Shown here: positions 3,667-37,612 of the stretch, piece by piece
How the letters are laid out: each line of letters opens with the position of its first letter
How positions within the stretch are numbered: position 1 is the stretch's first letter
Source of the DNA: Akkermansia muciniphila
GTDB taxonomy: Bacteria > Verrucomicrobiota > Verrucomicrobiia > Verrucomicrobiales > Akkermansiaceae
Direction: 5' to 3'
Length of the DNA: 38,066 nucleotides
Assembly (NCBI GenBank): GCA_945873305.1
Contig: CAMCCX010000021.1
Coordinates: 1 to 38,066 of the forward strand
Made by a program: the position numbers and the translations under genes
The notes under the pieces: generated by a model
Database searches by the model: none
What the model was told of the DNA's origin: nothing
The model's input: the letters and a program-made list of their open reading frames with translations, nothing else

Positions 3667-5094
3667 ATGAAATCCATCCCCACAGCTCCGCGGTTCGCCG
3701 CATCCATGCCCCGCCGCGCCTTCGTCAAGAGCGCCCTCACCGCCGGAACCGCCGCGTTCCTGGCACCCCGCCCGGCCTTCGGCGCGAAGGCCGCCGCCGG
3801 GGAAAAAGTCAACCTCGCCTGCTGCGGCATCGGCAACCGCGGCGCGGAAATCATCAAGGAACTGCACAAGACCGGCCTCGCCAACATCGTCGCGTTGTGT
3901 GACACCGACCTGGGCGCGCCGCACACGCAGGCCATCCTCAAGCTGTTTCCCGACGTCCCGCGTTTCCAGGATTTCCGCCAGATGTTCGACAAGATGGGCA
4001 AGGACATCGAAGCCGTGAGCGTCGGCACGCCGGACTTCTCGCATTTCCCCATCGCCATGCTCGCGATGTCGCAGGGCAAGCACGTGTATTGCGAGAAACC
4101 GATGGGCCAGAGCTACCGGGAGATCCAGTTGATGATGGACGCCGCGACCAAATACAAAGTCGCCGCGCAGATGGGCAACCAAGGCCACTCGGAGGCCAAC
4201 TATTTCCAGTTCAAGACCTGGGTGGACGCGGGCATCATCAAGGACGTCACCAAAATCACCGCCTTCATGAACAACCCGCGGCGCTGGCACGGCATGAAGG
4301 TTTCCGACTTCCTGCCGAAACAACCCGTCCCGGACACCCTCGACTGGGACGCCTGGCTGGCGACGGCGCAATTCCACGAATACAACAAGGGATACATCAA
4401 CGGCGAGTGGCGCTCGTGGTACGACTTCGGCAACGGCGCGTTAGGTGATTGGGGCGCGCACATTTTCGACACCGCGCACCAGTTTCTCAATCTCGGCCTG
4501 CCCACGGAAGTGGACCCGGTGATGCTCGAAAGCCACAGTCCGCTCATTTTCCCGCAAGCGTCCACACTCGCCTTCCGCTTCCCCGCGCGCGGCTCGATGC
4601 CGCCGCTGGAACTCACCTGGTATGACGGCGTGAAAAACCTCCCGCCGCTGCCCGAAAACATCGGCGATGCCGTCGTGGACAGCGACATCCCGCCGCCATC
4701 CACCGGCAAGGTGCAAACCAAGGCCCGCCCACCCGGCAAGGTCATCTACGGCGGAGATCTCGCCTTCAAGGGCGGCTCCCACGGCAGCTCGCTGCAGATC
4801 CTCGGCCCCAAAGCGGCGGAAATGAAGTCGAGTCTGCCAGAGGTTCCGAAAAGCCCGTCCAACCATTTCAAGAATTTCCTGCTCGCCTGCAAGGGCCAGG
4901 AAACCTGCCGCTCATCGTTCGCGGTGGCCGGCCCGCTCTGCCAGGCGATGGCGCTGGGAGTGCTCGCCCAGCGGGTGAATGCGAAACTCACCTTCGACCC
5001 CGCTTCCAAACAGATCACCAACCACAAGGTCGCCAACGAGCTGCTGGCCGGTGCTCCGCCGCGCAAGGAATGGGAGCAGTTCTTCAAACTCTGA
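3667..5094 (+). CDS. Gfo/Idh/MocA family oxidoreductase with Tat signal
   Basis: A 475-residue NAD(P)-dependent oxidoreductase. The N-terminus from the ATG at 3667 has a twin-arginine signal (MPRRAFVKSALTAGTAAF) ending near PAFGAKAA, so the protein is probably exported folded with its cofactor. The Rossmann fold begins at VNLACCGIGNRGAEI (GIGNRG at 54-59), and the family lysine motif appears as YCEKPMGQSY. The long C-terminal part, with YDGVKNLPPLPE and CRSSFAVAGPLCQAMALG, resembles the secreted Gfo/Idh proteins abundant in Verrucomicrobia and Planctomycetes that act on sugars or cyclitols; the substrate here cannot be told. ispD starts 7 bases after the stop, so the two may be co-transcribed although functionally unrelated. 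Confidence 0.9.
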   Translation: MKSIPTAPRFAASMPRRAFVKSALTAGTAAFLAPRPAFGAKAAAGEKVNLACCGIGNRGAEIIKELHKTGLANIVALCDTDLGAPHTQAILKLFPDVPRFQDFRQMFDKMGKDIEAVSVGTPDFSHFPIAMLAMSQGKHVYCEKPMGQSYREIQLMMDAATKYKVAAQMGNQGHSEANYFQFKTWVDAGIIKDVTKITAFMNNPRRWHGMKVSDFLPKQPVPDTLDWDAWLATAQFHEYNKGYINGEWRSWYDFGNGALGDWGAHIFDTAHQFLNLGLPTEVDPVMLESHSPLIFPQASTLAFRFPARGSMPPLELTWYDGVKNLPPLPENIGDAVVDSDIPPPSTGKVQTKARPPGKVIYGGDLAFKGGSHGSSLQILGPKAAEMKSSLPEVPKSPSNHFKNFLLACKGQETCRSSFAVAGPLCQAMALGVLAQRVNAKLTFDPASKQITNHKVANELLAGAPPRKEWEQFFKL

Positions 5095-7724: not shown

Positions 7725-7753
7725 CAGAACAGGATCGGGTGCAACTCGCCCTC

Positions 7754-7863
7754 AAGGAACGGCGGTATCCGACCGCCGGGCGCATGGACAGCCCATGCTT
7801 GCGCGGCATCCCTCAGCTCATGATCACCTCATGCACATGGGCGGACGGATTCCGCCCTTCCTT
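7754..7863. repeat. dispersed palindromic repeat, copy A
   Basis: An element of about 110 bp between the convergent ends of the YwaF-like gene and rarA. The left arm contains AAGGAACGGCGGTATCCG followed by ACCGCC. The right arm, read in reverse complement, starts AAGGAAGGGCGGAATCCG followed by TCCGCCC, so the ends are long imperfect inverted repeats. Related copies lie at 24717, 26144 and 36041. It ends 10 bases from the rarA stop. Confidence 0.85.
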
Positions 7864-7873
7864 GCTGCTGACC

Positions 7874-10887: not shown

Positions 10888-11112
10888 TAAAATAATTTCG
10901 GTTGCGGGAAGGCGGGCTCGCGGTAGTCTGCTGACGACTGCTGTGTACGACTATTTTGGTAGCTGGCCCGAACCGATATGATTGAACCGGGGTCATCTTC
11001 CGATGGACGATGTCACGCCTTTTCAGGAAGACGGAAACCCATTGGACGACCCCACTTATTGAGTTTACGGAACGTGGCTCACAGCGCCAAGGACGGCACA
11101 GCGGTCTTCTTT
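10888..11112 (+). ncRNA. candidate structured RNA or leader upstream of the YycJ-like gene
   Basis: The 337 bases between the two divergent starts hold no protein gene. A TAAAAT box (10888-10893) is followed by sequence with nested complementarity. GCTGTG (10940-10945) can pair with CACAGC at 11080-11085 or 11097-11102, GGGGTC (10989-10994) pairs with GACCCC (11048-11053), and small hairpins AGTC/GACT (10925-10939) and CATC/GATG (near 10995-11005) also form. It ends in TCTTCTTTTTT at 11103-11112, 45 bases before the downstream ATG. It could be an independent RNA of 6S-like size (about 210 nt) or an attenuating 5' leader. No family motif was recognised. Confidence 0.3.
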
Positions 11113-24647: not shown

Positions 24648-24716
24648 GGGGATTTGCGCAAGCTAGGCGCGGATGGCGTTCAAGGCAACGCTCAATCCCA
24701 TGCGGATTAGGCACCC

Positions 24717-24824
24717 AAGGAGGGTGCGATATCTGATCGCCCTGCCCCTGGGGGGACCAGGAAAAGCGATTCTCTCATCTCATTGGCTTTCCATGGGCTC
24801 GGCGGTCAGATACCGCGGTTCCTT
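24717..24824. repeat. dispersed palindromic repeat, copy B
   Basis: The most diverged copy of the ~108-bp element, lying between the divergent starts of the PBP2 and M48 peptidase genes. The right half matches copy C closely (GAAAAGCGATTCTCTCA, CTCATTGGCTTTCCATGG, GGCGGTC, GATACCGC). The left arm is decayed (AAGGAGGGTGCGATATC) but alignable. Being in a divergent promoter region it may influence either gene. Confidence 0.75.
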
Positions 24825-24861
24825 GTAAACCGCCGCTCTTGCGGGCGGCGGGAGCGCGTGC

Positions 24862-26130: not shown

Positions 26131-26143
26131 GCCGCGGCTCTTC

Positions 26144-26250
26144 AAGGAAGGGCGGTATCCGACCGCCCATGTCCATGAGAGGGCAATGAAAAGCGATTCT
26201 CTCAGCTCATTGGCTTTCCATGGACCCGGCGGTCGGATACCGCCGCTCCA
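26144..26250. repeat. dispersed palindromic repeat, copy C (best preserved)
   Basis: The left arm AAGGAAGGGCGGTATCCG plus ACCGCCC and the right arm GGCGGTCGGATACCGCC plus GCTCC form a long inverted repeat around a centre holding GCGATTCTCTCAGCTCATTG. The right 44 bases lie inside the 3' end of the ABC ATPase gene and supply its stop codon. Confidence 0.9.
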
Positions 26251-26920
26251 TGGGTTCGTGGATCGCGCCGTCCTTGATGATGAGCGTGCGGTCGCCGATT
26301 TTGGCTAAATTCTGATCATGGGTGACGACCACGAGGGTGACGCCGTGCTCGCTGGCGAGGTCGAGCAGGATGCCCATGATTTCCGCGCTGTTGCGGGAGT
26401 CGAGGTTGCCCGTCGGCTCGTCGGCGAAGAGGACTTTGGGCTCGTTGACGATGGCGCGGGCGATGGCGACGCGCTGCTGCTCGCCGCCGGAAAGCTCGGC
26501 CGGCAGGTGGTCGGTGCGGTCGGCGAGGCCGACGCGGGCGAGCGCCTTGAGCGCGAGCTCGGTGCTGTCCTTGCCGGAAATCGCGCCGGGCACGGCGACG
26601 TTTTCCAGCGCGGTGAGTTCCGGCAAGAGGTGGTAATTTTGGAACACGTAGCCGATCCGCTGGTTGCGGAAACTTGCCTGGGCGCGGCGGCCGAGGGCGT
26701 AGATGTCGGTGCCGTCGATGTGGACGCTGCCTTTTTCCGGGTGCTCGAGTCCGGCGAGCGTGTAGAGCAGGGTGGTTTTACCCGCGCCGCTGGGGCCGCA
26801 GAGGAAAACCTTCTCGCCGCGGTGGATTTGGAGGTCGATCCCGTGGAGCACTTCGATGGATTTCCGCCCGATCCGGTAGCTGCGGTGAAGGTCGGTTGTT
26901 TGAATCATCACGTCGCTCAT
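26207..26920 (-). CDS. LolD-like ABC transporter ATP-binding protein
   Basis: A 237-residue ATPase with Walker A GPSGAGKT (42-49), Q-loop VFQNYHLLPELTALENV, signature LSGGEQQR (143-150), Walker B VLFADEP (from 163), and the H-loop histidine at 201. The DEPTGNLDSRNS segment places it in the MacB/LolD/FtsE group, which drives lipoprotein release, macrolide export or similar membrane extraction with a FtsX-like permease; no permease is adjacent. The last 14 residues (MERRYPTAGSMESQ, 224-237) are encoded by the right half of a dispersed repeat and are not part of the normal fold. The end at HEP before them is where homologues would be expected to stop. Confidence 0.92.
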   Translation of the reverse strand: MSDVMIQTTDLHRSYRIGRKSIEVLHGIDLQIHRGEKVFLCGPSGAGKTTLLYTLAGLEHPEKGSVHIDGTDIYALGRRAQASFRNQRIGYVFQNYHLLPELTALENVAVPGAISGKDSTELALKALARVGLADRTDHLPAELSGGEQQRVAIARAIVNEPKVLFADEPTGNLDSRNSAEIMGILLDLASEHGVTLVVVTHDQNLAKIGDRTLIIKDGAIHEPMERRYPTAGSMESQ

Positions 26921-27101
26921 GCCGGAGGTTGTGCCATCCCGTTGGCCCGCGCAAGCGCCGGAACGTCATTCGGGCTGGCGTTCCGGCCGGGATTCCGCCA
27001 CGGTCCGCCCGCTGACGAAAAAATTTCCGGTTTTTTCACCTAAATCCGTGCGCGGCAGCAATCCTGCTCTAGAGATACCAAGTTTTTCACCTATTCTCAC
27101 C

Positions 27102-27962
27102 ATGGCTTACGATTCTGACAGCAGCATGAAACTCTATTTGCGGGAAATTTCCAGGACCCCGCTTCTCACCGTCGAGGAGGAAAACGCCCTCGCCGAGCGG
27201 ATCAAAATGGGGGACGACGAGGCCCGCACCCACATGATCAAGGCGAACCTGCGGCTGGTGGTGAAGATCGCCCACGATTACTCCGGCTATGGTTTGTCGC
27301 TGAGCGATCTGGTTTCGGAAGGCAACATCGGCCTGATGAACGCCGTCGAGCGGTTCGACCCGGAAAAAGGCGGCAAACTTTCGACTTACGGCGCATGGTG
27401 GATCAAGCAATCGATCAAACGCGCGCTGGCCAACCAGTCCAAGACCATCCGCCTGCCGATCCACATGGTGGACAAAATCGCCCGGATGCGGCGGATCTCC
27501 TCCACCCTCGCCGAATCCCTCGGCCGCGAACCGACCGATGACGAGCTGGCCTCGGAGCTCGGCCTGCCGCGCCAGAAGATCGCGATGCTCAAGCAAGCCG
27601 CGCAACGTCCGGCCTCGCTGGATGCGCCGGTGAATGAAGGCGAAGCCACCGAATACGGTGAAATCATCAGCGACGAGTCCGCCTCCGATCCGCTGGAACT
27701 CCTCACCGACAAGAATCTGCACGCCGAGATCGGCGGGCTGCTTTCCATCCTCAACGAGCGCGAGCGGCGGATTATCGACGAGCGGTTCGGCCTCAGCGGG
27801 CTCAAGCCGATGCTATTGGAGGACGTGGGCCGCGAGTTCGGAGTGTCCCGCGAGCGGATCCGGCAGTTGCAGAACTCGGCGCTGGCGAAGATGCGCAAGG
27901 CTCTGATGAAGAAGGACAAGCCCGCGCTACAGCCGTTTAACCCGGGGATGGCCGGGGCCTGA
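27102..27962 (+). CDS. alternative sigma-70 family factor (RpoS-like, group 2)
   Basis: A 286-residue sigma factor. Region 1.2 (SMKLYLREISRTPLLTVEEE) opens the protein, with no region 1.1 and no long insert, unlike the rpoD about 10 kb upstream. Region 2 holds LRLVVKIAHDYSGYGLSLSD and KLSTYGAWWIKQSIKRALAN; region 3 is REPTDDELASELGLPRQ; region 4.2 is VSRERIRQLQNSALAKMRKA. The lack of region 1.1 and the WIKQS variant suggest a group 2/RpoS-like stress or stationary-phase factor; this is inference. Two copies of TTTTTCACCTA lie upstream (27031 and 27083). A hairpin of the AGA-loop family follows the stop. Confidence 0.93.
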   Translation: MAYDSDSSMKLYLREISRTPLLTVEEENALAERIKMGDDEARTHMIKANLRLVVKIAHDYSGYGLSLSDLVSEGNIGLMNAVERFDPEKGGKLSTYGAWWIKQSIKRALANQSKTIRLPIHMVDKIARMRRISSTLAESLGREPTDDELASELGLPRQKIAMLKQAAQRPASLDAPVNEGEATEYGEIISDESASDPLELLTDKNLHAEIGGLLSILNERERRIIDERFGLSGLKPMLLEDVGREFGVSRERIRQLQNSALAKMRKALMKKDKPALQPFNPGMAGA

Positions 27963-27970
27963 GGCGACGC

Positions 27971-27991
27971 TCCCGGCTGAGACAGCTGGGA
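27971..27991. terminator. AGA-triloop hairpin between convergent genes
   Basis: The arms TCCCGGCTG and CAGCTGGGA, with one G-T pair, surround AGA. It sits eight bases after the sigma factor stop, in the 45-base gap to the convergent SYLF gene. It shares the core CGGCTGAGACAGC with the hairpin at 19213 read on the other strand. Confidence 0.55.
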
Positions 27992-28007
27992 CACGTTCTT
28001 CAGGGCA

Positions 28008-28589
28008 TTAGGGTTGCGGACGGATGCGGGTGATTTTCGAGCCTTGCAGGCCGAGTCCGCCCATCAGGCCGCGCTGGTCGAAGAAGAAGGCATACATGTT
28101 CTTGTCGAGCGTGGTGGTGGTGAGCGAGGTGGCCATTCCCTTGTCGACGATGACGAGGCTCGGGCTGCTGCCGATTTCCCAACCGCCGCTGCGGTTGATG
28201 CTGCGATAGGCGGCGTCATTCATGAAAAACAGGGCGTAGCCGAATTCCTGCACGCCGGCCTGAAGGCCGTAAGACGCGGCGGTTGTTTGGTAGAAACCGC
28301 TGATTTCGCCGGTGTCGCGGATCATCGCGCCATTGCCGGCCTGGGCGCCGACGATGAGCCCGCCTTTGACGACGGATGGAAACACGAGCACGCCCTTGGC
28401 CTGCTTGCCGATGGCTCGGGCGGCCGGGTTTTGGGCGTAGAGGGATTTCAGCGCGGCACGGGAGTCGCGGGAAATCTTGGAGGCGCTGGAAGTGGCGGCG
28501 TTCGCCTGGGTGATGGGATCGGTGGTGCAGCTAGGAAGGGCGGCGACGGCGGCGGAAGCGATGCAGAGGGCGATGAGGCGGGGGTTCAT
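28008..28589 (-). CDS. SYLF (YSC84-like) domain lipoprotein
   Basis: A 193-residue secreted protein. The signal peptide ends in a lipobox-like LPSC, so it is probably a lipoprotein with the lipidated Cys at about residue 21. The mature part is the SYLF/YSC84 lipid-binding domain: AKGVLVFPSVVKGGLIVGAQ, then SYGLQAGVQEFGYALFFMND and a closing GLMGGLGLQGSKITRI. Eukaryotic relatives bind phosphoinositides; the bacterial role is unknown but membrane-associated. It starts five bases after the alpha/beta-hydrolase stop, so the two lipoproteins are almost certainly one operon. Confidence 0.9.
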   Translation of the reverse strand: MNPRLIALCIASAAVAALPSCTTDPITQANAATSSASKISRDSRAALKSLYAQNPAARAIGKQAKGVLVFPSVVKGGLIVGAQAGNGAMIRDTGEISGFYQTTAASYGLQAGVQEFGYALFFMNDAAYRSINRSGGWEIGSSPSLVIVDKGMATSLTTTTLDKNMYAFFFDQRGLMGGLGLQGSKITRIRPQP

Positions 28590-28594
28590 GATGG

Positions 28595-30178
28595 TTAGTT
28601 TTGGTGGAGATGGAGGTGGAGAATGCGGCGGAGTTCGTCGAGGGTTTCCGGGAGTTCGCAGGCGCCGTGGGGGCCGGGCACGATTTTCTCGGACTTCCCG
28701 CCTTTGAGATGAGAACTCCAGTAAGGCACGATGCCGTCGGAACTGTTCGGCGTGTTGCCCTTGCCCTCGTCGCCGGCGATGGTGTGGTAGTTGGCTTGGA
28801 TGGGAATCGAGTCGAGGATTTTGAGGGTGGGATTCTTCGGCGAAAGTCCGGTCACGCTGGTAGGCATGCGGCCGGGTTCGCCGGTGAGAACGCCTATCGC
28901 CCCCATCGAGCTGGTGAGGGTGGAGGTGAGATCGAGGGGCAGCGAGATCAAGCGCATGCCGATTTCCCCGACTTTGCCGAGGGCCAGCTCACTGCCGCGG
29001 TGGGGCGTGCAGATGAAAATGATGCGGTCCACTTTCGGGTTCGCTTGGAAGACGGTGGAACGGTCGATCACGTCGCCCTTTTTGACATTGGCGAAGAATT
29101 TCGCGGCGTTGTCCTCACCGAGGATATTCCACGACTCGCGGGTCACGGTGGCGGCCTGCATGCGGGAAACGAGCCCGCCCATGCTGTGGCCGACGAGCAC
29201 GTAATCCGGGCAGTTTGGATAGAGTTCGCGGACTTTCGCGAGCTCCTCGCGAAACCGCATCGCCGAGTAGGCCGGCGGATTGCCGGTGGGGTAACCGAAA
29301 ACCCAGCACTGGTAGCGGCCGCGCAGTTCGGGGTCGGTTTCGAGCTCGTTGATCACGTTGCGCCACATCCGCGGGGTGGAAATAAGGCCGTGTACGAAGA
29401 TCAGCGGGATGCGGTCCGGATCATAGGGCTGGAGCATGTAGAGGCCGGTGGTTTTCATGTATTTGTCCACGCGGATCGCGCCCATGATGCCGTTCCAGTA
29501 TTCCGATCGCTGCGGGTAATAGGCCAGCGGCGCGGAGAAATCGGCCTCCAAGGTGCGCGTCACGCCGGAGATTGGAAACTTCGGTTTCTCCGTGGGATCG
29601 ATGAGCGTCAAGGTCACGTCGCGGCCTTTGAATTCGAGGGTGGCGGTGACCGGTGCGGTCACGCCGACCAACGGCGAGAAGTGCTCCAGCGGATCGGCCT
29701 TGCGAACTCCGACGAGCGCGCCGCCGATGCCGGACTGGAGATTCCGGCGATGCAGGTTTTTCTGCGCAACCTCGGCGGCGGCAGTGAAGGAAGTGAAGTA
29801 AGCGGGATCCCACACGCCATCGCGCCTGGGTCCGGCGAAGCGGAGGGAATAAGCGCCGCCGCCGGCGGCGATGGTCTGGGGACGGTTCCAATTCCGGCCG
29901 CCGTCGGACTCGCGCAGCAGGATGGTGAGGTCCGCCGCCGCTTTGTTATAAATTTGCCGGGCGGCCTCGCCGGAGGTCGGGGAAGCCAGCAGGGCACTCG
30001 CTTCACGGGCGGATTCCAGATAGAGAGCGGCGCGTTCCGCGGCGGGGAGCGTCTTTTGGGAAGCCGCCTTCAGGTGGACCGCGGCGGCGCGGTGCTCGCC
30101 CTCCGCGGATGGCAGGCTGGTGACACAAGCGGTGAGACCGAGTGTGAGGACGAAAGGCAGAAGGTGGGCGATTTTCAT
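28595..30178 (-). CDS. alpha/beta-hydrolase fold lipoprotein (lipase/esterase-like)
   Basis: A 527-residue exported protein. The N-terminus MKIAHLLPFVLTLGLTACVT is a lipoprotein signal with lipobox LTAC, which sets the start at 30178. Residues to about 260 form an N-terminal part rich in helices and strands (SPLVGVTAPVTATLEFKGRD). The hydrolase domain has the oxyanion segment PLIFVHGLISTPRMWRNV, the nucleophile elbow VLVGHSMGGLVSRM, and a C-terminal catalytic His candidate in VPGPHGACELPET. Bacterial proteins of this layout are predicted outer-membrane esterases; the substrate is unknown. It leads a two-gene lipoprotein operon with the SYLF gene. Confidence 0.85.
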   Translation of the reverse strand: MKIAHLLPFVLTLGLTACVTSLPSAEGEHRAAAVHLKAASQKTLPAAERAALYLESAREASALLASPTSGEAARQIYNKAAADLTILLRESDGGRNWNRPQTIAAGGGAYSLRFAGPRRDGVWDPAYFTSFTAAAEVAQKNLHRRNLQSGIGGALVGVRKADPLEHFSPLVGVTAPVTATLEFKGRDVTLTLIDPTEKPKFPISGVTRTLEADFSAPLAYYPQRSEYWNGIMGAIRVDKYMKTTGLYMLQPYDPDRIPLIFVHGLISTPRMWRNVINELETDPELRGRYQCWVFGYPTGNPPAYSAMRFREELAKVRELYPNCPDYVLVGHSMGGLVSRMQAATVTRESWNILGEDNAAKFFANVKKGDVIDRSTVFQANPKVDRIIFICTPHRGSELALGKVGEIGMRLISLPLDLTSTLTSSMGAIGVLTGEPGRMPTSVTGLSPKNPTLKILDSIPIQANYHTIAGDEGKGNTPNSSDGIVPYWSSHLKGGKSEKIVPGPHGACELPETLDELRRILHLHLHQN

Positions 30179-30282
30179 GAGCAAGTTCCCGGGGCGCGGC
30201 GGAATTTGGTACGTCCAAATGAGTGGCTTTTCAAAACTTTTTATTCGAACCCGCGCCAACCGTCCGTGGGGCGAGTGCCAAG

Positions 30283-30313
30283 AAAAAGGCCGCCCGGAGC
30301 GATCCGGACGGCC
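30283..30313 (-). terminator. rho-independent terminator of the beta-barrel gene
   Basis: On the reverse strand the arms GGCCGTCCGGA and TCCGGGCGGCC, with one mismatch, surround a four-base loop and are followed by TTTTT. It lies 30 bases beyond the stop of the beta-barrel gene and upstream of the hydrolase lipoprotein, so the two are separate transcripts. Confidence 0.85.
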
Positions 30314-30342
30314 AAGCGGTTGAAAACCTGAGCAACAGGGAA

Positions 30343-31035
30343 TTAGAAATTCACGCGGGCACCGATTTCCCAAGCGAACTCGTCGTCGAGTTCGAGTGAG
30401 GAATCGCCGAAATCCAGACTGTCGAGGTAGAGCCAGCGGGCGCCGCCGAACATCTCGAATTTCTCAGTGAAGTTATAGACGAGGCCCGCCGACGCTTGGG
30501 CGTAGAAGCCGCCGTCCGTGTCCGATACATCCAGGACATCCGAGTCCGTGAAGGCGTATCCAAGGCCCGCGCCCAGATAGAGTCCCAAGCCGCCGATCAG
30601 ATTGCGCTCCATTCCCAAGTTCACGGTCACCGGGACGATGTCGATGTCGGCATTGAGATCACCGAGGAGCTCGGCGATTTGCGGATCGCCGTCGAAGCTC
30701 ACGTCCGTGTCGCCGTCGAGGTAAGCCACTTCGAGGTAGGCGGTGGTGTTGAAGCCGTAAAAGCCATCCCCGAAATTTCGACCCAGATGCAGCGAGTACA
30801 TGTCGAAGTCGAACCCATCAAAATCGAAGTCGCTGGAATCCGCGTCCTCACCGATGGAGAAACCGTCACCGATGGTGCCGCCGACCTCGCTGAGACGACC
30901 GTAGCTGACACCGAAAAACCAGTCGCCGCCCATGACAGGCGGGTTGGCAGGTGGCGAGCGGGTTTCGGTGGTAGCGGTCCCGGCAAAGGCGGAGGCAGTC
31001 AAAGTGACTGCGAGCATGATTTGATGGAATTTCAT
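30343..31035 (-). CDS. outer-membrane beta-barrel protein
   Basis: A 230-residue protein with a signal peptide (MKFHQIMLAVTLTASAFA) and a mature part of alternating hydrophobic strands (GLYLGAGLGYAFTDSDVL, GGFYAQASAGLVYNFTEKFE), ending in IGARVNF with the C-terminal Phe typical of BAM-inserted barrels. Acidic loops are marked (DADSSDFDFDGFDFD). The length suits an eight-stranded OmpA/OmpW-like porin or attachment protein. Function cannot be told. It diverges from the metallophosphoesterase gene and has its own terminator. Confidence 0.82.
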   Translation of the reverse strand: MKFHQIMLAVTLTASAFAGTATTETRSPPANPPVMGGDWFFGVSYGRLSEVGGTIGDGFSIGEDADSSDFDFDGFDFDMYSLHLGRNFGDGFYGFNTTAYLEVAYLDGDTDVSFDGDPQIAELLGDLNADIDIVPVTVNLGMERNLIGGLGLYLGAGLGYAFTDSDVLDVSDTDGGFYAQASAGLVYNFTEKFEMFGGARWLYLDSLDFGDSSLELDDEFAWEIGARVNF

Positions 31036-31249: not shown

Positions 31250-32419
31250 ATGCCTGTCGTTTTCTTCATCATTTTTGGAATCCCGCTGCTGTCGCTGGCG
31301 TGGTGGATCTGGGCGGATCGGCGCTTGCAGCGCTTGGGCGCGGGCCGCGCTGCCAGACTGGCTTTGTCCGTTGCGGTGCTGCTGGTTTTGGGCGGCTTTG
31401 TGTGGGTGATTTGCGCGCGGCGGGACGTCGTGACGATGCCGATCCCCGCACCGCTTTACTCGCTGGTCCTGCTGTGGGGCTTGATTTTCCTGCCGATGCT
31501 GGGCTTGCCGAGCATGATGGGTTGGTCGCTGTGGTCGCTCGGGCGGCGCTTGACCCGGAAAAATCCCGCGGCCGTGACGACGGGCCGGAACTGGACGCGG
31601 CGCGAGTGGCTCGGCGCGGCGGCGGTGAGCATGCCGGTGATGGCGACCTTCGGCACGACGGCTTACGGGATTCCGCAAATGACGCGGTTTCGGATCCGGG
31701 AACTGACGGTTTCGCTCAAGGATTTGCCGCAAGCGCTCGACGGCATGCGGATCGCGCACGTGACGGACACCCACGTCGGCAAGTTCACCCGCGGCCGGGT
31801 GCTGGATGAAATCGTGGCCGCGACCAACCGACTGGAGGCGGATTTGGTCCTGTTCACCGGCGACTTGATCGACAACACGATCCGCGACCTGCCCGACGGC
31901 GTGCGAATGCTCCAACAGATGCGGGCGAAGTCGGGCGTGTTCGTGGTGGAGGGAAACCACGACCTGTTCGACGATCCGAGGGAATTTGTGAGAGGCCTGC
32001 GGGACGGCGGCATCGCGCTGCTCCGGAACCAGGCGGCGACGGTGGAAGTGCGGGGCGAGGCGGTGCAGATTCTCGGGATTATTTGGAATCGCAGTGAGCA
32101 GGAAATGGCCCTGAGCGTGGAAGCCGTGGCCGGCCTGCGCGACCCGGACGCGTTCCCGATCCTGCTGGCGCACCATCCGCACGCCTTCGAGCGCGCGGCC
32201 GAGCTCGGAATCCCGCTGACCTTGGCGGGCCACACTCACGGCGGGCAATTGATGCTCACGCCCGAACTCGGCGCGGGCTCGGCGATGTTCCGTTATTGGT
32301 CCGGACTCTATCAAAAAGCCGGACGCGCGATGGTGGTCAGCAACGGCACGGGCAATTGGTTTCCCGTGCGGGTGAACGCTCCGGCGGAGATCATCCACCT
32401 CACGCTGCGGCGGGCGTGA
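31250..32419 (+). CDS. membrane-anchored metallophosphoesterase (calcineurin-like)
   Basis: A 389-residue protein. Three N-terminal hydrophobic segments (about 4-20, 38-56, 68-90) anchor it; an RREWLGAAAV stretch at about 117 looks like a Tat signal but is internal. The catalytic domain has the binuclear metal motifs DxH (D173, H175 in VTDTHVGK), GDLID, GNHD and GHTHGG in the right order. The best-known relatives are YkuE-like phosphodiesterases that act outside the cytoplasmic membrane, some on UDP-diacylglucosamine. A decayed second copy of its 3' half lies about 2.2 kb downstream (34489-34598), part of a locus duplication. Confidence 0.92.
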   Translation: MPVVFFIIFGIPLLSLAWWIWADRRLQRLGAGRAARLALSVAVLLVLGGFVWVICARRDVVTMPIPAPLYSLVLLWGLIFLPMLGLPSMMGWSLWSLGRRLTRKNPAAVTTGRNWTRREWLGAAAVSMPVMATFGTTAYGIPQMTRFRIRELTVSLKDLPQALDGMRIAHVTDTHVGKFTRGRVLDEIVAATNRLEADLVLFTGDLIDNTIRDLPDGVRMLQQMRAKSGVFVVEGNHDLFDDPREFVRGLRDGGIALLRNQAATVEVRGEAVQILGIIWNRSEQEMALSVEAVAGLRDPDAFPILLAHHPHAFERAAELGIPLTLAGHTHGGQLMLTPELGAGSAMFRYWSGLYQKAGRAMVVSNGTGNWFPVRVNAPAEIIHLTLRRA

Positions 32420-32429
32420 CCCGCCAGAC

Positions 32430-32578
32430 TCGCAGCCAGGCGCGCCGGACCGCAAGCCGCCGCCACCGAGCCTTGATGTAACAATCCGTGCTTGATCCGT
32501 CGCTGCCCCGCACCGGCTATTTTCCGGCCCGCGGCATCGACGATGTCATGGCTGACGGGGTTTTCAAAGCAAGCGGCA
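32430..32578 (-). pseudogene. fragment of the lipoate-ligase-like gene
   Basis: This stretch matches the intact ligase gene at about 34725-34863 almost base for base, including the codons for CFENPVSHDIVDAAGRK and GQRRIKHGLLHQGSVAAAC. The start of the gene (beyond 32578) and about 120 bases near its 3' end are missing. It keeps the reading frame but cannot make an enzyme, because the N-terminal half of the domain is absent. It directly follows the stop of the metallophosphoesterase gene. Confidence 0.85.
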
Positions 32579-32633
32579 GGCGGCCCTGCAATGAGTATTG
32601 ACGCCGGATATCGGTTTGCACAGTTTCCGCGAC

Positions 32634-33647
32634 ATGAAACCACTTGTCCAAGTCGCGAGCTTGCAATTGGCCTGGCTTGCCTCATCCGAAGCCTTGGTGG
32701 TCTCGCTGAATCCCGCCGGCGGCATGGATCCCAATGCCTTGGCGGGCTTTCAGGCCGCGGCGAACTATTGGCAGTCCAAGCTCACCGACAACGTCACCGT
32801 CAATATCGATGTGGGCTTCAGCGCTTTGGGCCCCGGAATCCTGGGCAGCGCGGGCTCTACCAGCGCGGTTTTCAGTGTTGCAGACGTCCGTGCCGCTCTG
32901 ATCGGAGACGCGACTTCTACTAACGACATGCTCGCGATTGGCAACCTGCCAACGCTTTCCGGTCTCGGAGGTATCAGTTTTCTTACTCAAGTGAACTCCG
33001 AGACGGGAAGCTCCGCAGTCACTCTCGACAACGACGATTCCGGCAACAACCGATTCCTCGATCTCAACACCGCCAACGCGAAAGCGCTCGGTTGGATCGC
33101 GCCGAATCCACTCGCCGCCGATGCCTCGATCACATTCAGCTCGTCGTTTTCCTGGGACTTCGATCAGAGCAACGGCGTCGGGGCCGGCCTGCAGGATTTT
33201 GTCGGCGTCGCCATCCACGAGATCGGCCATGCCCTCGGCTTTGTCAGCGGCGTCGACATCGTGGATGGTTATATCGGAAACCCGACGAATTTGGATAGCT
33301 ACGCGATTTACTCCGCCCTTGATTTCTTTCGCTTCAGCGCCCCCGGAACCCTGAATCTCGCGGCGGGCGACGCCGCGTATTTTTCCCTGGATGGCGGCAC
33401 CACCAATCTCGGCAACTTCTCCACCGGCTCCATCTACGGAGACGGCCGGCAAGCCAGCCACTGGAAGGACAATCTCGGCCTCGGCATCATGGACCCGACC
33501 GCCAACCCCGCCGGCCAAATCAACACCCCGTCCACGCTCGATCTGGTCGCCTTCGACGTCATCGGCTGGAATCTCGTTCCCGAGCCATCGTCGGCTCTGC
33601 TAGGTTCCCTCAGCCTCCTGTTCGTGATGACTCGGCGCCGCCGCTGA
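32634..33647 (+). CDS. PEP-CTERM metalloprotease (NF038122-like)
   Basis: A 337-residue secreted zinc protease. The N-terminus has a moderately hydrophobic signal-like stretch (MKPLVQVASLQLAWLASSEA) weaker than usual. The metzincin-type site is HEIGHALGFVSGVD with H195, E196 and H199. The C-terminus VPEPSSALLGSLSLLFVMTR plus Arg residues is a textbook PEP-CTERM sorting signal, so the protein should be cleaved and anchored by an exosortase encoded elsewhere. Early AGFQAAANYWQSKLTDNVTV matches the NF038122 group. The TTG at 32598 is less likely than the ATG at 32634. The 5' end lies only about 55 bases from the duplicated ligase fragment. Confidence 0.88.
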   Translation: MKPLVQVASLQLAWLASSEALVVSLNPAGGMDPNALAGFQAAANYWQSKLTDNVTVNIDVGFSALGPGILGSAGSTSAVFSVADVRAALIGDATSTNDMLAIGNLPTLSGLGGISFLTQVNSETGSSAVTLDNDDSGNNRFLDLNTANAKALGWIAPNPLAADASITFSSSFSWDFDQSNGVGAGLQDFVGVAIHEIGHALGFVSGVDIVDGYIGNPTNLDSYAIYSALDFFRFSAPGTLNLAAGDAAYFSLDGGTTNLGNFSTGSIYGDGRQASHWKDNLGLGIMDPTANPAGQINTPSTLDLVAFDVIGWNLVPEPSSALLGSLSLLFVMTRRRR

Positions 33648-33659
33648 AACCACAGGCGA

Positions 33660-34463
33660 ATGGGACTCGGAAATCAAATCGATCCGGCCCAACGCCGGAG
33701 CATCGGGCTGGAAAAGCTCATCATCGGAATCCTGCTACTCTCGGCACTCGCCATTACGCTCACCCTGCTGATCGGCGAGGGATTGATCCACCGGAAACCC
33801 AAGGCGGAACCCGCCATTCCCAAACCAGTCAGCACTCCACCCGCACGGATGGAACCCGCCGCGCTGGCCGCGTTAGAAGCGTTTTTTGAAGCGCCCGATC
33901 TCGCCGCCAAGACCTCGCTCGTCCGCGACGGCGCGCGCGTCAGGCCAATGATGGAAGACTTCCACGCACGCCGCGGCCACCCGTTTCCCACGCTCGGGCG
34001 GGCCTCACCAGGCCATTCCGCCAGACTCGGTGAAACGCCGATGGTGCTGTTTGAAGTCGAGCCATTCTCCGGCCCGCGCTACTTCGTCGCGGTCGTGTGG
34101 GATGGCCACCGCTTCGCGGTCGATTGGGAAAGCCTGACCTGTTACGGAACCATGGACTGGAGCGAATTCATCGACAGCCAGCCCGCAGCCCCCCAGACGC
34201 TGCGCGTATTCATTCGGCAAGCGGCGGAAACCGCCCGCCAGCCGGGCACCCCGGATCCGATCCGGTTCTTCCAAATCGAGCATCGGGACCATCCGCAGCC
34301 TCTCATCGCCGCCGCCAACGCCGCAGTCGCGGCGACGCTCCAGCCGCTGGTCGAAAACCGGCGGGCACCCGTGACTCTAGAGCTCGTCTGGAAACCGCTC
34401 CTCCCCGGCGCGACACCCGTTCCATGGATTGAGCGGATGGTCGCCGAAAAATGGAGTCCGTGA
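33660..34463 (+). CDS. one-TM hypothetical protein (267 aa)
   Basis: No family recognised. One transmembrane segment near the start (LIIGILLLSALAITLTLLIG, about 20-40) is followed by a Pro-rich spacer and a domain of about 200 residues. That domain contains FFEAPDLAAKTSLVRDGARV, YFVAVVWDGHRFAVDWESL and a closing WIERMVAEKWSP. A similar phrase about drag through 'WES' and 'DGHRFAVDW' occurs in other Verrucomicrobia one-TM proteins as I recall them, but no function is known. It starts 12 bases after the PEP-CTERM gene, so the two are probably co-transcribed, and they form the insert between the two halves of a duplicated locus. Confidence 0.75.
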   Translation: MGLGNQIDPAQRRSIGLEKLIIGILLLSALAITLTLLIGEGLIHRKPKAEPAIPKPVSTPPARMEPAALAALEAFFEAPDLAAKTSLVRDGARVRPMMEDFHARRGHPFPTLGRASPGHSARLGETPMVLFEVEPFSGPRYFVAVVWDGHRFAVDWESLTCYGTMDWSEFIDSQPAAPQTLRVFIRQAAETARQPGTPDPIRFFQIEHRDHPQPLIAAANAAVAATLQPLVENRRAPVTLELVWKPLLPGATPVPWIERMVAEKWSP

Positions 34464-34488
34464 AAATGACAGTCATCCTCAATCCTTC

Positions 34489-34598
34489 TGCTGGATGAAA
34501 TCGTGGCCGCGACCAACCGGCTGGAGGCGGTGCAACTGGTTTCCCCTGCGGGTGAACGTCCCGGCGGAAATAATCCACTGACGCTGCGGCGGGCGTGA
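34489..34598 (+). pseudogene. decayed remnant of the metallophosphoesterase gene
   Basis: Bases 34489-34530 match 31800-31841 with one difference (codons for LDEIVAATNRLEA). After an internal deletion of about 510 bases, 34532-34598 match 32353-32419, including the closing LRRA codons and the shared TGA. A one-base deletion near 34580 breaks the frame. It precedes the intact ligase gene exactly as the intact phosphoesterase precedes the ligase fragment. Confidence 0.88.
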
Positions 34599-34608
34599 CC
34601 CGCCGGTC

Positions 34609-35331
34609 TCAGCGCCGGGCGGTCCACGCGGCCAGCGCGTACCGCCCGCGCACCTTCGCGGAAATCACGTCTGCCGGCGGATGGAATTCATGCGTCTCCC
34701 AGTTTTGTGCCAAACTGGCAGCCAGGCGCATCGCATCGCAAGCCGCCGCCACCGAGCCTTGGTGCAGCAATCCGTGCTTGGTCCGTCGCTGCCCCGCACC
34801 GGCTATTTTCCGGCCCGCGGCATCGACGATGTCATGGCTGACGGGGTTTTCAAAACAAGCGGCCGCCCCGGTTTCCGCGGCACCCGAGCTGAGGCGGGCG
34901 TCGATCCCCCCGCCTGCCAGCGCCTCCGCAAGCGCCCCATGCAGGATCCGGTAACTCTCCGCGCCACGCGCTTTAACCAGCGCTTCTCCCGCCGGGGCCA
35001 CCACCGTGTAAGTCCAGTCCGCCCGGTGATCCACCGTGCCGCCGCCGGTCCAGCGCCGCACCCACCCGACTCCGGGAAACGCCGCCCGCGCCTCCGCCAG
35101 ATTGCCGAAATACCCGACGCTCCCCCACTCTCCCAGCCAGCCGTAAACCCGCAGCACCGGCGTTTCCGCCGTCTCCAGCAGCCACTCGTCCACCGCCATC
35201 GCCTCCGGTCCGGAGCGTTTCACCGGATCCATCCACAACCGCAAGCGCCCGAAAATCACCCGCTCGTGATAAGCGCCGCCCGCAACAACCGCAACCTTCT
35301 TCACCCGATCCGTCAACGCCGGCACGGTCAT
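34609..35331 (-). CDS. lipoate/biotin-protein ligase family protein
   Basis: A protein of about 240 residues with the BPL/LplA catalytic fold. Visible motifs are RRWTGGGTVDHRADWTYTVV (the RRxxGGGxVxH signature), then NPVSHDIVDAAGRKIAGAGQ with the expected catalytic Lys in GRKIAG, and KHGLLHQGSV. This is the order in lipoate ligases and octanoyl-transferases. The small LplA C-terminal domain appears absent, which is common in LipM/LplA-like proteins. Whether it loads lipoate or another acyl group is not decidable here. ATG 35331 is chosen; a GTG at 35346 would add five residues. A fragment of this gene lies at 32430-32578. Confidence 0.85.
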   Translation of the reverse strand: MTVPALTDRVKKVAVVAGGAYHERVIFGRLRLWMDPVKRSGPEAMAVDEWLLETAETPVLRVYGWLGEWGSVGYFGNLAEARAAFPGVGWVRRWTGGGTVDHRADWTYTVVAPAGEALVKARGAESYRILHGALAEALAGGGIDARLSSGAAETGAAACFENPVSHDIVDAAGRKIAGAGQRRTKHGLLHQGSVAAACDAMRLAASLAQNWETHEFHPPADVISAKVRGRYALAAWTARR

Positions 35332-35440
35332 GTCTTTGGGGAGCACCCGCGCGAATCAACAGCCGCCTCCCTCCCCTGTCTCCTGCTAGTTTGACCGTAT
35401 GTTCGTTAGCCAGGACTGCCACCAAAACAGGCGCGGATTA

Positions 35441-35914: not shown

Positions 35915-36040
35915 TTTCTGGCCTAACTTTGTAATTCCTTCCGTCGGAGGATGGGTGATGTCTGCCGAGTTTGACGAGAAGAATCTCGGTCGGGTTACCC
36001 GAACGACAATTCAGCCAACGGATGCTGGCGGAGGCTGGGC

Positions 36041-36148
36041 AAGGAAGGGCGGAATCCGTCCGCCCAAGTGCATGAGGCGACCATGAGACGCGAGAGTCGC
36101 TAGACATTGGCTTTCCATGCGCCCGGTGGTCGGATACCACCGCTCCTT
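36041..36148. repeat. dispersed palindromic repeat, copy D
   Basis: Same size and ends as the other three: AAGGAAGGGCGGAATCCG on the left and GGTGGTCGGATACCACC plus GCTCCTT on the right. The right arm has two compensating changes (GGTGG...CCACC), so its own small hairpin is preserved. The centre is shorter in similarity but keeps CATTGGCTTTCCATG. Confidence 0.88.
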
Positions 36149-36211
36149 GGTGTGGGAGATCAAGCGGCGGGGCGGCGGGTTCATTCGCGGTTTCAATTTC
36201 CCACTTTGAAT

Positions 36212-36289: not shown

Positions 36290-37456
36290 TCAATGCTCGC
36301 GGCAGAACTGCTCGAAGCGGGTGAGTCCTTCGTTGAGGATGTCCAGCGTGGTGCAGTAGCTCAGGCGGATGCCCTCGTCGTAGCCGAAGGCGATGCCGGG
36401 AACGGCGGCGACCTTGTAGCGGGAAAGCAGCTTGTCGCAGAGGTTCATCGATTTCAGGCCGGTGTTGCCGGTGTAAACGAAGAAGTAGAACGCGCCGAGC
36501 GGCTCGACCACGCGGATGTTGTTGATCGCCTTGAGGCGGGCGAACATGAACTGGCGCTTGACGTCGTATTCGCCGCGAAGGTCTTCGATGAAGCTCTGGT
36601 CGCCTTCAAGGGCCGCAAGCGCGCCGTATTGGGCGAAGCTGTTGGCGTTGGAGGTGGTGTGGTTCTGGATCTTCTCGATCGCGTCCGCCAACGCTTTCGG
36701 CGCGGCGGTGTAGCCGAGGCGCCAGCCGGTCATCGAGTAGGCCTTGGAGAAGCCGTTGACGGTGATGGTCAGGTCGTAAAGTTCCTTGCTGAGCGAGGCG
36801 ATGGAAACGTGCTTCGCTTCGCCGTAAACGAGCTTTTCGTAAATTTCGTCGGACAGAATGACGATGTCCTCGCCGAGGGCGATTTCACCGAGGGCGCGAA
36901 GTTCGTCGGCGGTGTAGATGGCGCCGGTCGGGTTGCCGGGAGTGTTGATGATGACCATCTTGGTGGCCGGGGTCATCGCTTCCTCGAATTGCTCGGGAGT
37001 CATTTTCCAACCGGTCGATTCCTTGGTCTCGACGATGACGGGGACGCCGCCCGCGAGACGGACCATTTCCGGGTAGGAAACCCAGAATGGAGACGGGATG
37101 ATGACCTCGTCGCCTTCCTCGATCACGGCGAGAATGGCATTGTAGCAGGCCATTTTGGCGCCGCCGGTGACGCAGATCTGGCTCGGCGCGTAGTCGAGGT
37201 TGTTGTCGACCTTGAACTTGTTGGAAAGCGCGGCGCGGAGTTCGGGGATGCCGCCGGCCGGAGTGTATTTGGTCTTGCCGGCTTGGAGGGCTTCGATGGC
37301 CGCGTCCTTGATGAACTGCGGGGTATCGACTTCCGGCTCACCACCGGCGAGCGCGTAAACTTCTTCGCCCTTGGCGATCATCGCTTTGGCCTGTGCGGTG
37401 ACGGCAAGCGTGAGTGACGGGGAAACCTTGGCAATACGGGATGAGATGCTTTCCAT
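36290..37456 (-). CDS. pyridoxal-phosphate aminotransferase, aspartate aminotransferase type (class I)
   Basis: A 388-residue cytosolic enzyme starting MESISSRIAKVSPSLTLAVT, a typical opening for the thermophile/Rhizobium-type AspC subgroup. Conserved parts are YTPAGGIPELRAALSNKF, the PLP-binding VTGGAKMACYNAI, INTPGNPTGAIY, DEIYEKLVY, and the Schiff-base lysine in NGFSKAYSMTGWRLGY. The final Arg that binds the substrate carboxylate lies in GIRLSYCTT. It probably interconverts aspartate and oxaloacetate; related enzymes also act on prephenate. ATG 37456 is chosen because the upstream open frame is not conserved. It diverges from the DUF47-like gene and has a clear terminator. Confidence 0.94.
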   Translation of the reverse strand: MESISSRIAKVSPSLTLAVTAQAKAMIAKGEEVYALAGGEPEVDTPQFIKDAAIEALQAGKTKYTPAGGIPELRAALSNKFKVDNNLDYAPSQICVTGGAKMACYNAILAVIEEGDEVIIPSPFWVSYPEMVRLAGGVPVIVETKESTGWKMTPEQFEEAMTPATKMVIINTPGNPTGAIYTADELRALGEIALGEDIVILSDEIYEKLVYGEAKHVSIASLSKELYDLTITVNGFSKAYSMTGWRLGYTAAPKALADAIEKIQNHTTSNANSFAQYGALAALEGDQSFIEDLRGEYDVKRQFMFARLKAINNIRVVEPLGAFYFFVYTGNTGLKSMNLCDKLLSRYKVAAVPGIAFGYDEGIRLSYCTTLDILNEGLTRFEQFCREH

Positions 37457-37612
37457 TTGAGCGCGCGATTGAGGATTGGGCCGCCATCCCGGGCGGAGCA
37501 ACAGAATGTGCGCGACCCCGGTATGGGCGGAGCGCTTTTCTGAGGCTTCCCCCATGCGGTGGCAAGCGAAATGGTGCGCCAATCCTGAGCAGAAAACTCC
37601 GCTTGTCGGGGT

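Follow-up and report, generated by a model that had tools for sequence, protein, structure and literature searches.

Two described kinds of recombination come close to what we observe at a duplicated metallophosphoesterase (MPE)-ligase locus in Akkermansia muciniphila. The locus lies in contig CAMCCX010000021.1, of which we analyzed positions 1 to 38,066 of the forward strand (hereafter the window, 38,066 nucleotides). In Escherichia coli, the available text of one report describes 60 clones sought as illegitimate integrants, of which 56 gave a PCR product indicating a partial duplication (PMC3240628). The partial duplications of the homologous locus measured 109-950 bp in 14 sequenced clones and were ascribed to a recircularized molecule that integrated by a single crossover; four clones resembled true homology-facilitated illegitimate recombination (HFIR). 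In Vibrio, the excerpted text of a second report proposes HFIR for the modular replacement of type VI secretion system effector modules, which leaves orphan genes behind (PMC5361080).

In the window, a protease gene (P) and a gene for a protein with one transmembrane segment (TM) lie between two broken copies of the MPE-ligase pair. We consider it slightly better than an even bet that a native MPE-ligase pair was invaded, through flank-duplicating recombination, by a P-TM-MPE-ligase unit of the type that we found in a related genome, G011. The likeness to the E. coli lacZ integrations, so far as that report's available text describes them, is that partial direct repeats of the target, of a similar order of length, border the insert, as expected for single-crossover integration. 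Those integrations followed laboratory conjugation, whereas the window would record an old natural event with later deletions in both copies and a presumed donor. The locus shares with the excerpted Vibrio case one homologous and one illegitimate end, and a new module that displaces an old gene and leaves orphans in order, but it contains no effector or immunity genes. The kind of event is thus already known, and the locus is an instructive but ordinary genome change. Among the papers listed for partial gene duplication and for PEP-CTERM metalloproteases, none evidently concerned this locus.

Two partial copies of the MPE-ligase pair flank P and TM

A preliminary description of the window, made from one genome, had reported two MPE-ligase blocks in the same direction with reciprocally broken genes, separated by a PEP-CTERM protease and a one-TM protein. 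Our alignments bear this out. Three direct repeats connect the blocks: 31800-31841 with 34489-34530 (41 of 42 nt identical, 98%), 32352-32419 with 34532-34598 (60 of 67 aligned nt, 90%), and 32421-32577 with 34707-34863 (144 of 157 nt, 92%). The longest exact match between the left and right copies is 73 bp; when the 6.5-kb region was simulated 100 times with a first-order model, the longest exact repeats had a mean of 12.8 and a maximum no greater than 17.

The left copy consists of an intact MPE gene and a ligase fragment. The MPE gene (31250-32419, plus strand), which we take to be the native copy and call MPE(A), codes for 389 amino acids with a calcineurin-like phosphoesterase domain (Pfam PF00149, 1.2e-12); a YaeI match in the protein scans fell below its cutoff. 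The ligase fragment, lig' (32421-32577, minus strand), is truncated at one end and has an internal gap at the other. The right copy consists of an MPE remnant, MPE(B) (34466-34598, plus strand), with two internal deletions, and an intact 245-aa open reading frame (ORF) for a lipoate-ligase-type protein (34609-35346, minus strand; lipoate-ligase catalytic domain PF21948, 1e-14). The MPE and ligase genes of each pair are convergent, although both blocks share one direction.

The repeated part comprises the 3' part of MPE and the adjoining end of the convergent ligase gene, and deletions broke both copies. Compared with G011, the right MPE copy has lost some 530 bp at one place and some 510 bp at another. 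In the left ligase piece, 107 bp are missing compared with the right copy, with CCGCC at either end of the gap, and nothing of it extends beyond 32577. A 20-bp joint (32578-32597) that resembles neither side separates lig' from P, and similarity to G011 returns near 32598. P (32634-33647) and TM (33660-34463) follow on the plus strand. The preliminary description had the direction of the blocks right but began the right-hand remnant too late: it starts with a start codon at 34466, just after TM and 2 nt beyond its stop. The remnant reads MTVILNPSAG and then a stop, after ten codons.

P matches the metalloprotease family NF038122 (NCBIfam) with a score of 315.6 bits against a curated cutoff of 80. 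It contains HEIGH, as these metalloproteases do, and has a PEP-CTERM-like C-terminal end, although the PEP-CTERM models match below their cutoffs. The adjoining TM, by contrast, has no family match: no Pfam or NCBIfam model hit its 267 amino acids at E up to 0.1, and its predicted fold (mean pLDDT 81, pTM 0.60) found no PDB match with E <= 0.001. The two proteins share 88-89% (P) and 93% (TM) amino acid identity with their G011 counterparts. Among the genomes compared, dN/dS values for MPE, P, TM and the ligase were 0.16-0.36, including 0.17-0.18 for the left MPE against G013 and G011 and 0.30-0.36 for the right ligase against G001, G013 and G011. All four genes therefore appear to be under constraint. 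We also considered P-TM as a mobile element and rejected this idea after finding no transposase or recombinase family match in either protein (Pfam, NCBIfam).

The gene order in G011 places P-TM before a single MPE-ligase pair

We searched 73 genomes of the genus, including the window's own, and found 13 with an MPE match at E <= 1e-40. The MPE neighborhood was inspected in 12 of these 13; G081, where the match lies at a contig edge, was left out. P-TM adjoins MPE in two of the 12, the window's genome and G011. A convergent ligase stands directly beside MPE in G011, G013 and G056, a single gene separates the two in G053 and G063, and the window has a convergent ligase as well; the other six neighborhoods contained no convergent ligase in the stretch fetched.

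The locus in G011 reads trpB-P-TM-MPE-ligase-AAT-PhoU, and every gene is open. Its contig (C5) matches record CAMCUY010000005.1, a metagenome-assembled genome labeled Akkermansia muciniphila, and the genome has one MPE match and one AAT match. The names sigma, trpB, AAT (aminotransferase-like) and PhoU are putative and follow sequence resemblance. The order in G013 is sigma-MPE-ligase, with no P-TM match in that genome and with AAT and ligase on separate contigs. G001, which falls below the MPE threshold, has sigma, a decayed MPE, an unrelated gene, the ligase and AAT. The window keeps a sigma-factor-like gene on the left (27099-27962, plus strand), which anchors the presumed native order sigma-MPE-ligase, and AAT on the right (36290-37582, minus strand), with the insert between them. 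AAT adjoins the ligase in the window, G011 and G001, but not in G013.

The preliminary description had proposed two origins for the locus and suggested comparing relatives with a single pair. One origin was a tandem duplication after which each copy kept a different gene. The other was an insertion that duplicated its flanks. G011, with P-TM in front of its only MPE-ligase pair, and G013, with a pair and no P-TM match, speak for insertion and against the tandem reading. The preliminary description had also allowed that a protease pair always present at this place without duplication would count against its account, and G011 partly shows this arrangement.

Two other gene orders suggest which adjacencies are old. 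The trpB-P-TM order also occurs at two distant loci (L148 and L149), where other genes follow TM and no MPE match lies within the stretch examined. From this comparison, trpB-P-TM is therefore old and the TM-MPE joint looks derived. The convergent MPE-ligase pair is old as well, and other DNA has apparently entered the space between its two genes on more than one occasion. The MPE-ligase interval also holds unrelated genes in G001 and in G053/G063 (L035 7619-9265, L140 5864-8068 and L141 6324-8294); we found no direct repeats of at least 40 nt at two of these loci, L035 (4500-11500) and L141.

The two MPE copies differ at their 5' ends

We compared the starts of the MPE proteins. An A-type start, MPVVF, is found in the left MPE of the window, in G013 and in G001, with MPVVY in G009. 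A B-type start, MTVIL, is found in the MPE of G011 and in the right remnant of the window. The remnant also shares the 2-nt TM-MPE spacing of G011, so that its start adjoins the TM stop as it does there, and the first 16 nt of MPE are identical at 16 of 16 positions. The 5' end of the left copy is of the target type. A donor-type locus, with P-TM next to MPE-ligase, thus exists in G011, and the window seems to combine a native MPE on the sigma side with a unit of G011 type behind it.

Given these differing 5' ends, the two blocks do not resemble the products of a single tandem duplication. Had the MPE-ligase pair been duplicated in tandem and split later by an insertion of P-TM, the order and direction of the repeats would be as we see them, and the roughly equal distances among the left, right and G011 copies would fit as well. 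The right MPE is, however, joined to TM just as in G011, which has a single MPE, and such a history would have to produce that joint twice or involve an extra transfer. Nor is P-TM foreign to the unit in G011, where it stands directly before the single pair. We therefore do not favor the tandem duplication of the preliminary description and regard it as rather unlikely.

The flank-duplicating insertion of a G011-type unit would have proceeded as follows. The starting point would be a convergent MPE-ligase pair between the sigma-side and AAT-side flanks. Incoming DNA, presumably of outside origin, would have carried P-TM-MPE(B)-ligase in the order still intact in G011. The shared MPE-ligase sequence would have allowed entry by homology on one side, and the non-homologous joint between lig' and P would have closed the other end. 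The most economical route would be a linear fragment that was rejoined to a circle and entered by a single crossover, with a circle that we infer from the duplication only. A flank that is duplicated, not deleted, makes us favor this route. HFIR would be the alternative route, but it predicts a deletion at the target according to the available text on the E. coli clones (PMC3240628), and the window instead shows a duplicated flank. Either route would yield MPE(A)-lig'-P-TM-MPE(B)-ligase, with partly duplicated sequence on both sides of the insert. The ligase piece, being truncated, would have been dead at once, and the redundant second MPE would then have decayed through deletions. Homologous entry combined with a non-homologous joint would explain the gene order, the truncation, the start types and the missing trpB in one event. 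The insertion that the preliminary description had offered as its second origin was thus largely right, except that the inserted unit would be P-TM-MPE-ligase rather than P-TM alone.

Several observations weigh against this insertion. When the remote outgroup G057 was used to score sites in the left MPE, 25 joined G011 with G013, 19 joined the window with G011, and 11 joined the window with G013. Over its length, the left MPE is thus not closer to G013, and the argument from A- and B-type copies depends on the first codons and the upstream joint; these counts slightly lowered our confidence in the insertion. Within the 157 nt of the ligase piece, with gap columns set aside, four sites joined left and right against G011, three joined left with G011, and one joined right with G011; with so few sites in a short piece, donor and native sequence are indistinguishable there. 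Sigma directly adjoins MPE only in G013 and G001. Three minus-strand genes (28008-31035) part sigma from MPE in the window, and the sigma gene of G011 is on a different contig, with one of these three genes and no MPE behind it, so the left flank has its own history. Synonymous divergence of P from G011 is 0.242, close to the median of 0.244 over 29 ORFs, and thus gives no evidence of a recent transfer out of the G011 lineage itself. Finally, both key genomes are drafts.

The draft status raises the question of an assembly artifact, in which two strains or an extrachromosomal form were merged at the 73-bp exact repeat. The window's genome is a 3.06-Mb assembly in 171 contigs, and the exact core of the repeat could have invited a false join. 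The joint between lig' and P, however, has no shared sequence at which such a join could form, the two copies bear different deletions, and the G011 assembly has the right-hand block intact. Judging from these assemblies, an artifact is unlikely, and we give it a very small chance.

A probable date after the split from G011

We estimated the age of the event from changes in its dead pieces. The left and right copies of the ligase part differ by 8%, roughly the distance of each to G011. With the three copies at much the same distance from one another, we rejected dating by copy identity alone. The joint at 32577 deprived lig' of its function, so the changes private to it date the event. We counted five private changes (six with one ambiguous site) in its 157 nt, and, by eye on the alignment, three (four) private substitutions plus a 1-nt deletion in 109 nt of the MPE(B) remnant. 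About 19 and 13 neutral changes, respectively, would be expected since the split from G011 (Poisson probabilities <= 0.003). This expectation is derived from the median synonymous distance between the window's genome and G011 in 29 ORFs, one half of which is 0.122, and the dating assumes a clock and the neutrality of that value. The 29 ORFs remained from 34 non-overlapping ORFs after a fixed rule removed five with pN/pS >= 0.6 (probable shadow frames); they include P, TM, MPE and the ligase, and a residual shadow frame is possible. As the private changes are far below the neutral expectation, the event is probably younger than the split between the window's lineage and G011. The preliminary description had called it recent, which agrees with this decay clock, yet the dead pieces carry 3-4% private change.

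An insertion before that split has points in its favor. Under this scenario, G011 later lost the left copy, and a P-TM/P-TM recombination placed trpB in front. The TM-MPE joint is common to both genomes, and the divergence of P is median. Informative sites also group the window's genome with G011 against G013 and G001 at the ligase (20/5/5) and in the trpB region (33/8/12), more weakly at sigma (14/10/4), and leave a lolD-like gene undecided (5/5/2). The private changes in lig' are too few for such an age, and the scenario calls for a further copy of P-TM and for additional losses. The 56 bp that separate trpB from P in G011 showed nothing ligase-like, and we hold a pre-split insertion to be improbable. 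Sliding identity hinted at a recombination switch in the right ligase, a candidate that we dropped when quartet counts, with few informative sites, did not localize it.

We also considered and rejected a recent transfer of P-TM from G011's lineage. The raw identity of P-TM is 92.4%, compared with 88% in the sigma region, but P lies at the median synonymous distance and TM is low (0.122, second lowest of the 29 ORFs). Because the distance of P to G011 is that of a median ORF, G011's own recent lineage would not be the donor. The donor of the inserted unit would then be a relative at a similar distance to G011 or a former copy in the window's own genome.

A former copy in the same genome could also have acted without any incoming DNA. 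An ancestor with both sigma-MPE(A)-ligase and trpB-P-TM-MPE(B)-ligase might have undergone a rearrangement that fused the broken first ligase with the interval between trpB and P. The divergence of P fits such vertical descent, and trpB of the window's genome lies on another contig (C50) with a different gene behind it. The own genome, however, gave one MPE match, one AAT match and no second ligase stretch. We found no leftover ligase half, with 40 of 111 candidates and 7 of 108 scored in a first look, and no second AAT or reciprocal rearrangement product. AAT would also have to land on the right again by chance. These points make an intragenomic rearrangement quite improbable, and we retain the insertion of a G011-type unit as our preferred explanation.

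The locus looks like a natural case of an accessory gene pair entering a locus through homology supplied by a neighboring gene and leaving a readable scar. What reads as duplication with reciprocal decay in a single genome can instead record an insertion, and the 5' ends of the copies help to decide between the two. As a side result, the locus points to a conserved protease-partner gene pair with no assigned function.

P and TM occur together in other genomes

We examined eight loci found with a TM profile (L144-L151). A P-like stretch lies near TM in all eight, and three of the eight pairs stand behind trpB. The P-like stretch at L147 is a partial match with 30% identity, the protease match at L145 is in two pieces, and the protease of L146 and L147 is on the strand opposite TM. 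Weaker relatives of TM are present in 45 of the 73 genomes (E up to 1e-5), with the neighboring protease checked in part only. We tentatively suggest that P, as a surface-type metalloprotease, and TM, as its undescribed one-TM partner, make up a dedicated two-gene module whose members stay together in distant Verrucomicrobiota, whereas its place and internal orientation vary. The window would then capture this module being moved from the trpB neighborhood into another locus by recombination through an acquired neighbor, MPE; we consider the proposal as a whole doubtful for now.

Two further P-TM sites were inspected for flanking repeats. At L134, P-TM lies between the members of one weak repeat pair of 58 nt that share 74% identity at a distance of 9.5 kb, and L135 (4000-10000) has no flanking repeats. 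Upstream of trpB in G011, a stretch within a short ORF (L033, about 4064-4505) is 94% identical to C5:41774-42219, which makes it another gene-fragment duplicate near the G011 locus. The stretch appears to resemble a purine-synthesis gene.

Other features of the window

A 6S RNA match at 10932-11111 (plus strand) barely exceeds the Rfam gathering score (47.8 versus 46.4 bits). A terminator-like, G+C-rich repeat of roughly 30 bp follows the sigma-like gene (about 27968-27999) and recurs at many sites, both in the window's genome and in related ones. A second, dispersed repeat (about 110-134 bp) is located at 24704-24837, 26131-26264 and 36028-36161, and in inverted orientation at 7753-7865. This dispersed repeat is also present on other contigs of the window's genome and in several members of the genus.

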